DNA from: a virus
Virus record (IMG/VR): IMGVR_UViG_3300021091_000239
Coordinates: 1 to 33,064 of that record
Direction: 5' to 3' (one strand)
DNA length: 33,064 nt
The notes beneath the pieces are model-generated. The model did not search any database. It had not been told where the DNA came from and saw nothing but the letters and a program-made list of their open reading frames with translations. Shown one piece after another: positions 986 through 29,548 of this stretch (its first letter is position 1; each line of letters begins with the position of its first letter). The translations under genes and the position numbers were made by a program.

Positions 986-1354
986 CTACGCCCCCATTGG
1001 TGAGAATTCGTCCCACTCTTGAGTTTCTTCGTTCCAAACCCACATGCCTTCTTCGGGTCGCTCGACTGGCGCTTCCCAATCGGCGGTCTCTTCGTTCAGC
1101 GTCCAGGACGGGTACGGCTTGGGGGCGATGAATGCATCGAGTTCCTCGTTGAACGCATACCCGATTCCCGCGTAGCGCTTGCGGAAGTTGTTGTTGTACG
1201 AGGTCTGCTTCCACGTGCCACCCAACAGGTTGGTGCAGAATGCAGCGCCAACTGCGTCGCTTGCGGGGTAATCCCCGCCACCGCAGTCGTCGTTGGACAC
1301 GACGATCACCTGGGTGACCACGTTATCTGAGTTGATTTGGGCAAAATGTGCCAT
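986..1354 (-). CDS. Small virion-associated protein ('MAHFAQIN' family)
   Basis: This 122-residue protein begins MAHFAQINSDNVVTQVIVVS and contains 'GGTWKQTSYNNNFRKRYAGI' and 'AFIAPKPYPSWTLNEE'. I recognise this layout from structural or accessory proteins encoded beside tail fibres in many aquatic phages; the function is not established. The C-terminus has two tryptophan motifs, 'WTLNEETADWEAP' and 'WVWNEETQEWDEF', that look like a short duplicated beta unit. An AGGAG ribosome site lies about nine bases before the ATG, and a TATAAT promoter-like element sits just upstream at 1400-1405. The stop is TAG; the next fibre frame starts in the same frame six bases later. It probably belongs to the adhesion module. 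Confidence 0.7.
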   Translation of the reverse strand: MAHFAQINSDNVVTQVIVVSNDDCGGGDYPASDAVGAAFCTNLLGGTWKQTSYNNNFRKRYAGIGYAFNEELDAFIAPKPYPSWTLNEETADWEAPVERPEEGMWVWNEETQEWDEFSPMGA

Positions 1355-1461: not shown

Positions 1462-1950
1462 CTATACCTTGGTGCCAGTAATTAAGCCGCATTGACTATT
1501 CGCTGCCATCACTCCAGAAAATTGGGTAATCCAAGTAGAATTGTCATTACTAGCCTGAACCGTGTAATTTGCGGAACGAAGACCTCCACTGAATGATGAA
1601 TATACCTTTGCAAAAGTAACCTCTTTCAACTGTCCGACGCCTGCGTCATAGGTGATATTCGTCGCCCCCCACCCAGGACCATCAACAGCGCCCGAATCGG
1701 CGCAGTTATCGCTCACAGCAGTTGAAATGGTGACATCTATGCCATCTAGCGTCAAAACATAACGAGCCACTCGAGGGTGGTGCCCAGAGATTGCGCCACC
1801 AATCTGATATCTAAAATATCTATACGTGTTTGGTCTTGGCCAGTTTAAATTTGCTCGCTCTTGTTGCTGCGTAGTCAAATCCCAAAATCCAGAAGCAGAG
1901 GTTGTTGACACCGTTTGCCTAGGACCGATACGTCCACCACGCTTACGCAT
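1462..1950 (-). CDS. Tail-tip protein with discoidin-like (F5/8 type C) fold
   Basis: The protein has 162 residues. It opens with 'MRKRGGRIGPRQTVSTTSAS', a start I associate with phage fibre-tip proteins, followed by 'GFWDLTTQQQERANLNWP'. The remainder resembles a galactose-binding or discoidin sandwich: 'YRYFRYQIGGAISGHHPRVA' and, near the end, 'ANYTVQASNDNSTWITQF', the classic 'sYtvegSnDGtnWt' element of F5/8 type C domains. A carbohydrate-binding role at the tail tip is therefore likely. Its ATG overlaps the stop of the upstream cupredoxin-like gene by one base. Base composition is unlike the neighbours: three 60-base lines I counted are about 35-43% GC, while adjacent fibre genes exceed 60%, suggesting recent acquisition or exchange. 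Confidence 0.65.
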   Translation of the reverse strand: MRKRGGRIGPRQTVSTTSASGFWDLTTQQQERANLNWPRPNTYRYFRYQIGGAISGHHPRVARYVLTLDGIDVTISTAVSDNCADSGAVDGPGWGATNITYDAGVGQLKEVTFAKVYSSFSGGLRSANYTVQASNDNSTWITQFSGVMAANSQCGLITGTKV

Positions 1951-2627
1951 TAACTAATCTCCTCGTACGAGCAGACCGCCTCCAGGTCGCCGTTCACAAG
2001 AGTAGTAAGGCGAAGTTGGTCGCCCTCCTCAAGATAAACAGACTTAGAGATAATGTCCAACGTTGCGTCGGCTGGAACGGCAATCGTCGAGGCGAGCCTG
2101 TACGAAGTTCCCGACCTGACGATGTCCACTGTCACGTCCGCGGAGTTTACTCCGTCTACGTTGGAGACGTACAGCGCGTTGACCTTCAGCACCTTGTTGG
2201 AGTTGCTCGCAGTACCAGTCACGTTTATTGTGCCCCCCATCGCCGAATGGTTTTGGCAGACGTAATACAGGGTGTTCGGTGCGTCGGCGGGAATTTGATA
2301 AGTGATGTAACCAAGTTCCGTGCCATTGTTTCTAATACCAGATGTAACTACATTCGCTGCGTTGTACGCACCAGATGAACTTTGAATCCAAAACGGATGA
2401 CCGACTGCATTCACCTGAAATGTATAGGTTGCGCCACGTGTAAGGTTCAAGGTTGCATTATTTGAACCACCAACAACATAAGCGGATGCACCGCTGTTTG
2501 TGACCACGATGGTCGTTCCAGCGCTGCTACCCTCATTCTTCAGTATGGGCGTCGGGGTCGTCGTGACGGCAAGGAACGCCGTCTGTCCCTTTATCGTCGT
2601 AACTCCCACGATGTTTGGTGCCGTCAT
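1950..2627 (-). CDS. Virion protein with cupredoxin-like domain and C-terminal structural domain
   Basis: This 225-residue protein has two parts. Residues about 35-137 look like a cupredoxin: 'ATYTFQVNAVGHPFWI' then 'NTLYYVCQNHSAMGGTINV'. H77, C124, H127 and M130 match the four type-1 copper ligands, with C-x2-H-x2-M spacing as in amicyanin. Similar 'YYxCxNHSxMGG' segments occur in structural proteins of aquatic phages. Residues about 145-225 ('KVLKVNALYVSNVDGVNSAD' onward, ending 'DLEAVCSYEEIS') resemble a short beta-rich domain found at phage tail tips. The gene lies between the repeat-rich fibre gene and the discoidin-like gene, so it is probably part of the fibre complex. Copper binding is inferred from the ligands only. 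Confidence 0.7.
   Translation of the reverse strand: MTAPNIVGVTTIKGQTAFLAVTTTPTPILKNEGSSAGTTIVVTNSGASAYVVGGSNNATLNLTRGATYTFQVNAVGHPFWIQSSSGAYNAANVVTSGIRNNGTELGYITYQIPADAPNTLYYVCQNHSAMGGTINVTGTASNSNKVLKVNALYVSNVDGVNSADVTVDIVRSGTSYRLASTIAVPADATLDIISKSVYLEEGDQLRLTTLVNGDLEAVCSYEEIS
2217..2450 (-). other. Cupredoxin-like copper-binding domain
   Basis: This segment encodes about residues 60-137 of the 225-residue virion protein. All four expected type-1 copper ligands are present (H77, C124, H127, M130). The fold call rests on this ligand pattern and the strand-like segments around it. Confidence 0.6.
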
Positions 2628-24611: not shown

Positions 24612-25157
24612 CTATCTGTCGTCGTTCGGCGGTGCCTCTATGGCCGGCTCGTCCACCTTCGCAGACGACTCGATCGGCACCCACGCGCGGGAGTAGAGGT
24701 GGTCCTTTATCGCCCGGTGCTTGATTATCGTCCCATCCACCAGCAGGTCGAATTCGTCGGCCGAGAGGTTGAGGGCCAGCATGAGATCGTTCTCGTTCGC
24801 CGAGCCGGACGAAGTGAGGCGCCTTATCGCCGAGGAGAGCTTCTTTGACACGACCGATCCCCTGCCCCTGTTCATCTGGACGTGGAGGATTATCGCCTCG
24901 GCCTCGGTGCAATCCACCAACGAAACCGGCACGGTCGCCCCGACGGCCTCCCTGACCTGCTGGTTGTTCATCGACAGAAGGCATCGTTCGTGTCCGTCGA
25001 TAATCGTCAGCCCTTGCCTTCTCGCCACTATCGGGGAGAGGATTCCGTGCCTGCACATCGAGCGCGCCAGCACCGCCAGGTCGGGGGAGAGCGTGTAGGT
25101 CGTTCGCCACGGTGCAAGCGCGAGATCGCCCGGATTCATCTGGGTTGATTCAGCCAT
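24612..25157 (-). CDS. ParB-like nuclease-fold protein A (short)
   Basis: The 181-residue protein has a compact ParB/sulfiredoxin-like N-terminal half: 'DLAVLARSMCRHGILSPIVA', 'GLTIIDGHERCLLSM' (GHER at 55-58, the equivalent of the ParB G-x-R-R box), then 'VPVSLVDCTEAEAIILHVQM' followed by 'NRGRG', with the unusual NRGRG in place of the ADNR found in the sister gene. Residues about 120-150 could form a helix-turn-helix (NENDLMLALNLSADEFDLLV). The end is acidic and disordered. It overlaps the PAPS-reductase-like gene by eight bases and is the third gene of the cassette. ParB-fold members bind nucleotides (CTP/ATP) or act as nucleases; which applies is not known. Confidence 0.7.
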   Translation of the reverse strand: MAESTQMNPGDLALAPWRTTYTLSPDLAVLARSMCRHGILSPIVARRQGLTIIDGHERCLLSMNNQQVREAVGATVPVSLVDCTEAEAIILHVQMNRGRGSVVSKKLSSAIRRLTSSGSANENDLMLALNLSADEFDLLVDGTIIKHRAIKDHLYSRAWVPIESSAKVDEPAIEAPPNDDR

Positions 25158-26274
25158 TCGTTTCCCCCTGGTTCTTTATCATTCTGCCAGCCTTCGTCCC
25201 CGGGCCAGCCGGGTTCGCCGAGGTGACGTGTATCGAGTTGAGCAACAGCGTCCTCACCAGCCAGTGGATCGGATACGAGGCGGGGTCGTGAACCATCTTC
25301 TTCTTGAATGTCGAGACGTATCGTCTGGCCGCCGTCTGCATCGTCTTGCCAATCATGAAATCGGAAATGAATTGGCTGACCCCGTCCAGCCCGTCCTGCG
25401 AGTAGGCCCCGACCACCTTGTCGGCGTCGAAGTCCTTGCCGAGCCGCCTCTGCGCATCTATGCGCGGGAACACCCTCACGAGCTGGTCGTAGAACTCGGG
25501 CTCGGTGGCGATGACGTCGCCGAGTCTGCGTATGGCTATCGAGTGCAGCGGTATGCCGACTCTCGTGTTGGAACCCGTCATCTCTGCCGCATCGTAGTAC
25601 TCCGAGTATTCGCCGCCTGATTCGTGGATGAACCTGAACACGTCGCTCGTCTGCCAGTCGTAGATGACCTTGGCGAATTTGAGCGGGAGGCCGCGCTTCA
25701 CGCCGAAGGGTGTGACTATGTAGTTCTCGTGGAGTTTCTGGACGCACGACCTGTACCTGATCATTGACTCGTTCGCGCGCACTCCCGTGATGAACGCCGT
25801 CCTTCCCTTCTTGCCCTGCATCGTGTAGTAGTCGATCGTCTCCCTGAGTGGCTCGTCGTGCGACAGGCCGAAATTCCTCGCGCTGATGGCGAACTCCGGC
25901 ATGGGCCTGACCAACCTCCCCTCGCGCTCCCGCTTCCCGCTCCACAGCAACGCCGTCTCGCGCCTGCCGAGTATCCATATCTCCGCGCCGTACGGCAGGC
26001 AGTACCACTCCATGTCGACCCACGGATAATCGCGCACCCTCATCACGTAGTCGACGACCATGGGGCTGACCATTTCCTCGTCGCGAAATATCACCTTGAC
26101 CGGCCCGAGCCCCCGCTCCTCGTGTACTTCCCTCGCCAAGTGGAGTATCGCCGTCGAGTCCTTGCCCCCGGAGAACTGCACGCACACGGTGTCGAAGGTG
26201 TCGTACACGTGCCGCATCCTGGCGCGCGCCGCGTCCACGCAGGAGGCATCAAGGAACAGCCGTTGCCGCGGCAT
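25150..26274 (-). CDS. PAPS reductase-like PP-loop protein (IbrA-like)
   Basis: The protein has 374 residues from the ATG at 26274, which overlaps the upstream stop (TAATG); a frame to 26376 lacks a start signal. Residues 35-41 are SGGKDST, the PP-loop that binds ATP and forms an adenylate. Further family elements are 'VKVIFRDEEMVSPMVVDYVM', 'FITGVRANESMIRYRSC' (the G-x-R-x-x-E-S motif) and 'VIYDWQTSDVFRFI' (the 'Pi.dW...DVw.yi' motif). The rest is a helical C-terminal region with many R and K. There are four cysteines (12, 31, 92, 177) but no CxxC pair, unlike the iron-sulfur DndC of phosphorothioation. Length and ParB partner resemble IbrA/IbrB of E. coli. Substrate unknown. Confidence 0.8.
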   Translation of the reverse strand: MPRQRLFLDASCVDAARARMRHVYDTFDTVCVQFSGGKDSTAILHLAREVHEERGLGPVKVIFRDEEMVSPMVVDYVMRVRDYPWVDMEWYCLPYGAEIWILGRRETALLWSGKREREGRLVRPMPEFAISARNFGLSHDEPLRETIDYYTMQGKKGRTAFITGVRANESMIRYRSCVQKLHENYIVTPFGVKRGLPLKFAKVIYDWQTSDVFRFIHESGGEYSEYYDAAEMTGSNTRVGIPLHSIAIRRLGDVIATEPEFYDQLVRVFPRIDAQRRLGKDFDADKVVGAYSQDGLDGVSQFISDFMIGKTMQTAARRYVSTFKKKMVHDPASYPIHWLVRTLLLNSIHVTSANPAGPGTKAGRMIKNQGETNG

Positions 26275-27002
26275 TAGAAGTCGCAGTGCGCTTCTAGGTA
26301 ATTGAGGAGCCTCTCGGCTGTTGTGTTTCCGTCCGTCTCGGCGTCCGACCTGAGCCACTTGACGAAGTCGTACCACCTGCTCTGTTGCTCCACGCTGTCG
26401 AAGACGATCGTGTACTGCACGATGGCGGTCGGCTTCTTTATCCCCGGTATGGATGTGCTCCCGAGGGCGGCGACGTTCAATTCCTCGCCCTTCGGAACGA
26501 CCGGCACCGCGTCCTGCTGTTCGACGATCACTGGCGGGACAAACTCGCTCGAAGTGAGTATCTCGCTCTCGGCGTTCGACACCGTTTCCTCTATCGATGC
26601 CATGTCGAACTCGTCTATGCCGAGGCCGTTCATCAGTTCCGAGTATTCCGACCCGATCTGGCCGATCATCTGCATCAGCAGGTCCTCGTCGTAGCCGCCG
26701 AGGTCGGACGTCCTGTTGTCCGCGTAGGCGAACGCCATCGCCTTCTTCTCGTCGGCGTCAAGCACCGTGCACGCGATCGAGTCCCATCCGAGTCGCTTCG
26801 CCGCCTGGTACTGGTGGTTGCCCGCGATGATGACGTAGCGTCCGTCCCCGTTCTCGGCGACGACGATCGGCTTTATCTGCCCGAACTCCTTGTACGAGGA
26901 TGCGATGGCATCGACGTCGCCGCGCCTGGGGTTGTCCTTGAGCGGAACGAGGCTGCCGAGCGGCATCGCCAGGGAGGCGAGCGACTCGTGTATCCCGTTC
27001 AC
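26274..27002 (-). CDS. ParB-like nuclease-fold protein B (IbrB-like)
   Basis: This 242-residue protein has a clear ParB/sulfiredoxin domain (about 12-115): 'MPLGSLVPLKDNPRRGD' with NPR at 24-26, 'SYKEFGQIKPIVVAENGDGR', 'YVIIAGNHQYQAAKRLGW' (GNHQ where ParB has GxRR/GHxR) and 'AMAFAYADNRTSDLGGYDED' with ADNR at 94-97. The GNHQ-ADNR combination is typical of ParB-like proteins found next to DNA-modifying enzymes and PAPS reductase-like genes in phages and islands. Residues about 190-242 are a second small domain (VQYTIVFDSVEQQSRWYDFV). Its stop overlaps the PAPS-reductase-like start by one base, so the pair is probably co-translated. Function is inferred from association only. Confidence 0.8.
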   Translation of the reverse strand: MNGIHESLASLAMPLGSLVPLKDNPRRGDVDAIASSYKEFGQIKPIVVAENGDGRYVIIAGNHQYQAAKRLGWDSIACTVLDADEKKAMAFAYADNRTSDLGGYDEDLLMQMIGQIGSEYSELMNGLGIDEFDMASIEETVSNAESEILTSSEFVPPVIVEQQDAVPVVPKGEELNVAALGSTSIPGIKKPTAIVQYTIVFDSVEQQSRWYDFVKWLRSDAETDGNTTAERLLNYLEAHCDF

Positions 27003-28738: not shown

Positions 28739-29548
28739 CTAACGACTCCTTCGGTTCGCCCAAGCTGGGCAAATCCTCTTGTAGTGGCACCAGTCGCACA
28801 GGCGCGAAACCTTCGTCGGAAAAGAGCCGGTGCCGATCGCCTCCGCTACCTCGCCGTGGACCTTCACGACGCGGGCGAGGGTCTGCTCGTCGTCGCCGTC
28901 CTTCATCTTCCTGCTTATGCTCTTACCGTCCTTCAGGTAGATGAGTTCCACCTCGTCAACCGATTTACCGGTCGTCATCAGGGTCGGCGAACGCTCGACA
29001 ATGATTTTGTACAGCATCAACTGGAACCACTTCTGGTCCATGTACGCAGGCTTCGGGAACTTTCCCGTCTTGTAGTCGGTGACTTTCAGGCCGTCCCCCG
29101 CCTCGGCGACGCGATCCACGAACCCGCGCACCACCACGCCGGGCGAGACCTCGACCTTGTACTCGGATTCGAGCCCCAACGGCGACACCTTCGCCGGGTT
29201 CTCCACGGCCCAGAGGTTCTCCACGCACCACCATGATTTCCACCTGAATTCTCGCATTTGTTGCTCGTCCAACCCGATTGCGGCCAGCCGGCTTTCCCAG
29301 CCCTTGGCCCAGACGAAGCGAGACACCTGTTGCGCGTTGCCGATGGTGCGCTCCTCGCTGGGCAGCGCGTACAGGTTCTCCAGCACCTCGTGGACGAACG
29401 TGCCCATCACCTGGCTCTCCGTCTCCGGCTCGGGGATGCCGTCGATGCGGCTGTACTTGTACCTCTGCGGGCACTGCTCCCAAGTGGATATGGACGATGC
29501 CGAAAGGTAATCGGGCATGCGCAATTCCTGCGGCTGTTCAGTGGTCAC
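28739..29548 (-). CDS. Cas4/RecB-like PD-(D/E)XK nuclease with iron-sulfur cysteines
   Basis: The 269-residue protein has the full PD-(D/E)XK set of the RecB/Cas4 type: 'SASSISTWEQCPQRYKYSRI', H53 in 'GTFVHEVLE', D145 in 'GFVDRV', D158 and K160 in 'TDYKTGKFP', and Q176/Y180 in 'WFQLMLYK'. C26 with C251, C254 and C260 ('CDWCHYKRICPAW') would hold a 4Fe-4S cluster as in Cas4 and AddB. Such proteins resect DNA ends. It lies right after the Rad52-like annealing protein, the normal exonuclease-annealing pair of phage recombination. No CRISPR array is present. Confidence 0.85.
   Translation of the reverse strand: MTTEQPQELRMPDYLSASSISTWEQCPQRYKYSRIDGIPEPETESQVMGTFVHEVLENLYALPSEERTIGNAQQVSRFVWAKGWESRLAAIGLDEQQMREFRWKSWWCVENLWAVENPAKVSPLGLESEYKVEVSPGVVVRGFVDRVAEAGDGLKVTDYKTGKFPKPAYMDQKWFQLMLYKIIVERSPTLMTTGKSVDEVELIYLKDGKSISRKMKDGDDEQTLARVVKVHGEVAEAIGTGSFPTKVSRLCDWCHYKRICPAWANRRSR

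Follow-up and report, generated by a model that had tools for sequence, protein, structure and literature searches.

In the families in which they are known, type-1 copper sites transfer electrons, and the exposed second histidine ligand of the known cupredoxins constitutes their docking face. Both the cupredoxin fold and the type-1 site are kinds already described, and the locus analyzed here has to be compared with them and with related viral proteins, among them the gp9 family of cyanophages (phrog_677, annotated as baseplate wedge tail fiber connector). The T4 counterpart, gp9, forms trimers, six of them from 18 copies, and its C-terminal domain is where the long tail fibre is coaxially attached (PMC3004832). 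Cyanophage gp9 is composed of an N-terminal domain that matches PF07880 (T4_gp9_10_N, E 9.8e-12) and of a module of ~110 residues that forms its end and that is the subject of this work. PHROGs and GenBank name the proteins that carry this module gp9 or tail fibre, with no mention of copper, and one stand-alone copy is named PetE. Among open-access papers, no report of a phage tail module of the cupredoxin type was found, and the open-access paper on the tail structure of A-1(L) mentions neither a metal nor a cupredoxin.

The DNA analyzed here, referred to as the window, is a viral stretch of 33,064 bases (60% G+C, coding mainly on the minus strand), whose genes include those for terminase, tail sheath, tail tube, baseplate wedge and fibres. 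The original prediction placed a complete type-1 copper site, formed by H77, C124, H127 and M130, in a 225-residue virion protein of the fibre block, regarded as a tail-tip protein, and proposed that the particle may bind copper, for stability, host-surface binding or redox-triggered ejection, or that the site may be a metal-linked stabiliser of the fold.

The gene and its neighbours

The four residues were found in the translated 225-residue reading frame as predicted (Table 1), with the spacing H-x46-C-x2-H-x2-M, and Cys124 is the only cysteine of the cupredoxin domain. The interval originally assigned to the site, 2217-2450, corresponds to residues 60-137 of the protein, and no second copy of the domain is present within the 33,064-base window. 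Full-length relatives, 73-97% identical, are encoded in IMG/VR contigs. The gene overlaps that of the 162-residue neighbour and lies directly upstream of it, in a block of fibre genes; this setting supports the earlier view of a fibre-block virion protein, and location of the protein in the virion is likely, judging from its neighbours, whereas its position at the tail tip is putative. The adjoining 512-residue fibre is made up of some six repeats, whose signature is (N/D)PPASPSEG(N/D)LWF(N/D)S(N/D)TAxTFIYYDSQWVE(V/I)GG. Elsewhere in the window, genes for a PAPS reductase (25150-26376), a ParB-like protein (24612-25157) and an exonuclease (28739-29548) separate the terminase from the head and tail genes. 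PADLOC gave no match.

Table 1. Position of the gene, its parts, the codons of the putative copper ligands and the neighbouring genes in the window.
Feature	Positions	Strand	Basis
Gene of the 225-residue protein, stop codon included	1950..2627	-	Open reading frame; full-length IMG/VR relatives
Scaffold, N-terminal arm (residues 1-33)	2529..2627	-	Aligns with the N-terminus of the insert-less ~117-residue relatives
Inserted cupredoxin domain (residues 34-139), predicted	2211..2528	-	hmmsearch against PDB; AlphaFold2/VIA match (34-137); absent from insert-less relatives
C-terminal scaffold domain (residues 140-225)	1953..2210	-	64-83% identity to insert-less ~117-residue relatives
His77 codon, putative first type-1 ligand	2397..2399	-	Pairs with the His of rusticyanin GH(S/D)FDI in the profile alignment
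Cys124 codon, putative type-1 ligand	2256..2258	-	Profile alignment; conservation in homologues
His127 codon, putative type-1 ligand	2247..2249	-	Profile alignment; conservation in homologues
Met130 codon, putative axial-type ligand	2238..2240	-	Profile alignment; conservation in homologues; retained also in the ligand-less clade
Neighbouring repetitive fibre protein, 512 residues	2631..4169	-	phrog_9729 tail fiber, E 3.2e-34; adjoins both gene forms
Neighbouring 162-residue protein	1462..1950	-	Weak F5/8 type C-like match, under cut-off
Neighbouring 122-residue protein	986..1354	-	phrog_7759; conserved within the fibre block

Assignment to the cupredoxins

No family of Pfam or NCBIfam matches the window protein above its cut-off (Copper-bind, PF00127, gives the domain 12.8 bits versus a cut-off of 21.2), and a phmmer search of the PDB with the single sequence gave no match. 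A profile built from 33 relatives was searched against the PDB with hmmsearch, and all or nearly all of its 40 best matches (E up to 10) were cupredoxins or relatives of CuA domains and laccase: copper nitrite reductases, rusticyanins, auracyanin, plastocyanins, amicyanins, azurins, pseudoazurin, CuA domains and a laccase, the best of them with an E of 4.5e-4. In the alignment with rusticyanin, HPFWI stands opposite GHDFDI (from the S86D mutant) and YVCQNHSSMAG opposite YYVCQIPGHAATGMFG, so that all four ligand positions correspond to those of rusticyanin. The spacing of the loop is identical in copper nitrite reductases (YICTLHPWMKG, YICSIHPYMKG), and it is shared by the YxCxxHxxM loop of NirK-fused cupredoxin domains and by an azurin that, according to the title of PDB entry 2xv2, carries a CAAHAAM loop. 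The amicyanin family of NCBIfam is matched weakly by 16 of the 33 family members (best E 8.6e-5).

The predicted structure of the full-length protein (AlphaFold2, pLDDT 78.9, with ~82-93 across most of the domain) contains the Greek-key beta-sandwich of the cupredoxins, and Foldseek ranks rusticyanins first among PDB entries (E 1.9e-5); with VIA-align, residues 34-137 match rusticyanin over 96 residues with Z 11.5, rmsd 2.3 and 27% identity. When the domain was modelled alone (pLDDT 83) the agreement with this fold was weaker: cupredoxins still head the list, with the same rusticyanins as best match (Z 5.8), and Foldseek finds nothing below E 0.001. The evidence for the fold is, therefore, mainly the full-length model together with the sequence profile, which indicate that residues ~34-139 are very likely a cupredoxin domain. 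The likeness to rusticyanin, auracyanin, amicyanin and plastocyanin comprises the predicted fold over residues 34-137, four aligned ligands and, for amicyanin, the C-x2-H-x2-M loop, whereas the window domain differs from the known cupredoxins in being embedded in a phage structural protein, in which no signal peptide was seen. A further difference lies next to the first histidine ligand, where plastocyanin and azurin carry an asparagine, a second-sphere residue, whereas a proline was found in all 53 aligned rows (the window protein and its IMG/VR relatives) and is invariant in this near family; multicopper oxidases have His-Pro at their type-1 histidine as well. The predicted type-1-like site, with an amicyanin-like loop in a cupredoxin fold, is thus supported by the profile search and the modelled structure, and also by the conservation of its ligands.

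A cupredoxin inserted into a small scaffold protein

Most relatives of the scaffold are proteins of ~117 residues in which the N-terminal arm passes straight into the C-terminal domain. A search seeded with the scaffold returned 42 distinct relatives without the insert and 12 with it, in addition to one truncated sequence. Counterparts of the neighbours at 2631, 1462 and 986 border both the short form (L037, L038 and L134) and the insert-bearing form (L001, L004 and L008), and the N-terminal part of the 162-residue neighbour comes after both. Short-form relatives were also found in isolates, namely the cyanophages Bellamy and S-SKS1, the pelagiphages HTVC033P and Mosig, and DSL-LC04. These insert-less proteins (L037 and L038, and the relatives in HTVC033P, Bellamy and S-SKS1) share with the window protein the same neighbours and a closely similar scaffold (identities in Table 1), but the cupredoxin domain is absent from them. 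By its sequence and predicted structure, the window protein is a small fibre-block phage protein with a cupredoxin domain inserted between its own two parts, an N-terminal arm and a C-terminal beta domain.

Conservation of the ligand set

All four ligands are present in 52 of the 53 aligned rows, the remaining one ending at a contig end. Because two of the seed peptides of this first IMG/VR search contained ligands, it was repeated with seeds that lack them. The first of these was the C-terminal scaffold only, with no cupredoxin residues, and the HCHM set was found in each of the 12 distinct insert-bearing proteins. The second comprised residues 1-290 of S-CAM22 gp9, a part without the domain. 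All 60 distinct full-length gp9 proteins found with it terminate in a domain with HPF...CxxHxxM, and a 61st is cut by a contig end. Distant tblastn matches in phage isolates also have the full set, except for one lineage (S-B43-type), and the residue after the first histidine is variable among them (HP, HA or HG). In three alignments or searches, His77 is present in every ligand-bearing homologue. Lack of conservation in homologues had been named as a way to refute the original prediction, and this refutation failed, also with searches seeded outside the ligands.

In total, 198 distinct domains were compared. The full set is present in 145 of them (142 that fit the pattern and three HPM variants) and 48 lack H, C and H; the other five are one truncated sequence and four weak matches, degenerate or second copies. 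No partial set exists among the confidently aligned domains. A few apparent partial sets arose from automatic column counts and were discarded on reading as misalignments, truncations or weak degenerate second copies. The cupredoxin part has a dN/dS of 0.03-0.08 (pairwise, where dS could be calculated), a stronger constraint than that of the scaffold part, and the ligand codons differ synonymously (CAT/CAC, TGC/TGT). Judged from these sequences, the four-ligand arrangement is not due to chance, and the putative metal site is very likely under selection.

A clade that lost the ligands

The exceptional lineage is represented by a tail-fibre domain of Synechococcus phage S-B43 (L093), in which F, A and V replace H, C and H, whereas the methionine is kept. 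The domain is matched by a profile that excludes it (E 6.7e-23). A search seeded with it gave 68 related stretches, corresponding to 49 distinct domains, of which 48 lack the three ligands (F for the first histidine, A or S for the cysteine, and V, T or I for the second histidine); the other one, L340, is complete. The 48 sequences form one clade with support 98 in a tree calculated with the ligand columns masked, where the loss corresponds to one change, and the all-or-none pattern of the ligands depends mainly on a single loss event. This tail-fibre clade, in which the domain and its methionine are retained, is represented by L276-L339 together with L093.

Persistence of the domain in this clade implies that the fold does not need a metal, that the basic role of the module is carried out there without copper and that elsewhere the ligands are retained as a set. 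This weakens the proposal that the metal merely stabilises the fold, and it also bears on an alternative according to which the module is an ordinary beta-sandwich spacer or adhesin whose ligands coordinate zinc or some other metal, or only form a structural cluster. A fold kept without H, C and H in 48 distinct sequences, although of one tail-fibre clade, is what such a spacer would give, and the identity of a metal cannot be read from a sequence. However, the ligand set and its spacing match those of type-1 copper sites, including the equally spaced azurin loop of 2xv2, and the combination of ligands that are dispensable for the fold with their strict joint retention elsewhere argues for a metal function, so that this alternative is rather unlikely.

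Other carriers of the module

Residues 33-137 of the window protein match positions 301-409 of the phrog_677 profile, that is, its last ~110 residues, with an E of 1.5e-22, and the ligands of cyanophage gp9 are identical to those of the window protein. Both differ in architecture: the T4 gp9/10 N-terminal domain is missing from the window protein (Pfam finds no PF07880 in it, whereas S-CAM22 gp9 has it), whose module is an internal insert. Among 50,697 phage records, 288 contain the N-terminal part of gp9 and 329-357 contain the cupredoxin module. According to the available sequences, the module terminates gp9, the socket protein of the long tail fibre, in nearly all sequenced marine T4-like cyanophages; this near-universality and the removability of the module are new with respect to the original prediction. 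Other carriers include baseplate proteins of the gp7 type, collagen-like fibres (with two copies in L043) and proteins with an S8 peptidase.

The copy named PetE belongs to Synechococcus phage S-SCSM2R (PQ898602.1, XQU50115.1; L082 2788-3294), where it adjoins FhaB and peptidase S8 genes. Its best match is the virion family phrog_677 (E 1.7e-39), and it is probably misannotated as an auxiliary metabolic gene, being by its sequence a virion-type cupredoxin module.

In genomes, the module was found mainly in contigs of metagenome-assembled genomes (MAGs), some clearly phage-like and others coding for actinobacterial or Bacteroidetes proteins with collagen stalks. Two actinobacterial MAG proteins (L104 3569-4297 and L107 1269-2138) have, besides a C-terminal cupredoxin of this family, a collagen-like stalk and a putative membrane segment, and could possibly be a cellular surface counterpart of the phage module. 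Together with L105 and L109 they share the ligand-bearing domain with the window protein, but they are apparently cellular, contain collagen repeats and, as read, do not lie among phage tail genes.

Possible roles

The reading that we consider fairly probable is that the window protein carries, exposed on the surface of the virion, a copper-loaded module that serves attachment or keeps the fibre joint stable, in the form of an inserted cupredoxin with a selected ligand set. Copper is likely the metal bound, as the ligand set suggests, whereas the role in docking or stability is a guess, favoured over its rivals. The virion would be assembled with the domain free of metal, and copper would be acquired after lysis or within the outer layers of the host. 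The metal would then fix the loop from C124 to M130 and the face around His127 as a rigid, exposed docking surface, which may serve as an attachment or joint module that contacts the host surface or a fibre partner and adds to the stability of the particle; electron transfer would be possible, but unnecessary. What favours a general role of this kind is the recurrence of the module in numerous unrelated places, collagen stalks that are not from phages among them. Since the T4 fibre joins the C-terminal domain of gp9, the module of cyanophages would be located close to the fibre joint or within it, provided that T4 and the cyanophages have this architecture in common. A more tentative extension, to which we give somewhat less than even credence, takes blue-copper domains as a general and mobile component of tails in aquatic phages, with copper at the long-tail-fibre sockets of marine T4-like cyanophages, where it would take part in host attachment or in the contraction switch.

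An alternative is a redox-active site, in which tail contraction or ejection would be triggered or gated by copper that, on meeting the host surface, alternates between its Cu(II) and Cu(I) states, or electrons would be exchanged with surface redox proteins. It would agree with the general function of type-1 sites, although to our knowledge T4 has no such module. The presence of the module on gp9 fits it too, as the T4 counterpart participates in the baseplate switch (PMC3004832). However, its occurrence also on fibres, S8 peptidase proteins and collagen-like proteins, far from known triggers, and the existence of the ligand-less clade make this alternative unlikely.

Very unlikely is a copper Trojan horse, in which the virion would offer copper to a host receptor for copper uptake, by analogy with the Ferrojan Horse proposed for iron. 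For iron, such a hypothesis has been published (Bonnain et al. 2016, as cited in PMC10892097), and the module is widespread among phages of marine picocyanobacteria, but the sole test of the iron version cited in PMC10892097 was negative in its host, and phages and MAGs of several host phyla contain the module. Capture of a host plastocyanin, a relic of an auxiliary metabolic gene joined to a structural gene, is hardly credible despite the remote homology detected in the profile search and the PetE annotation of one cyanophage member, because that member was rejected as a plastocyanin on its best match and its neighbours, the family is also present in phages and MAGs linked to non-photosynthetic hosts, and the plastocyanin match in Pfam never rises above the cut-off.

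With the copper-loaded attachment or joint module as the favoured reading, copper may be present in the particles of many aquatic phages. Should it be bound, a metal site capable of redox chemistry would be present at the tail-fibre joint in virions of marine viruses that are among the most abundant, trace-metal chemistry would be linked to phage adsorption and stability, and tail design would gain a transition-metal module. Some viral plastocyanin (PetE) annotations would designate tail proteins rather than photosynthesis genes. The natural relatives that lack the ligands or the insert allow a direct test of the copper question.

Structural relatives in other viruses

Models in BFVD that resemble the model of the window protein include cyanophage tail proteins and some beta-sandwich proteins of giant viruses. 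Among the latter, A0A481YVH3, A0A481Z6J5 and A0A481Z7Q7 are short beta-sandwich proteins from relatives of Marseillevirus and Pithovirus.
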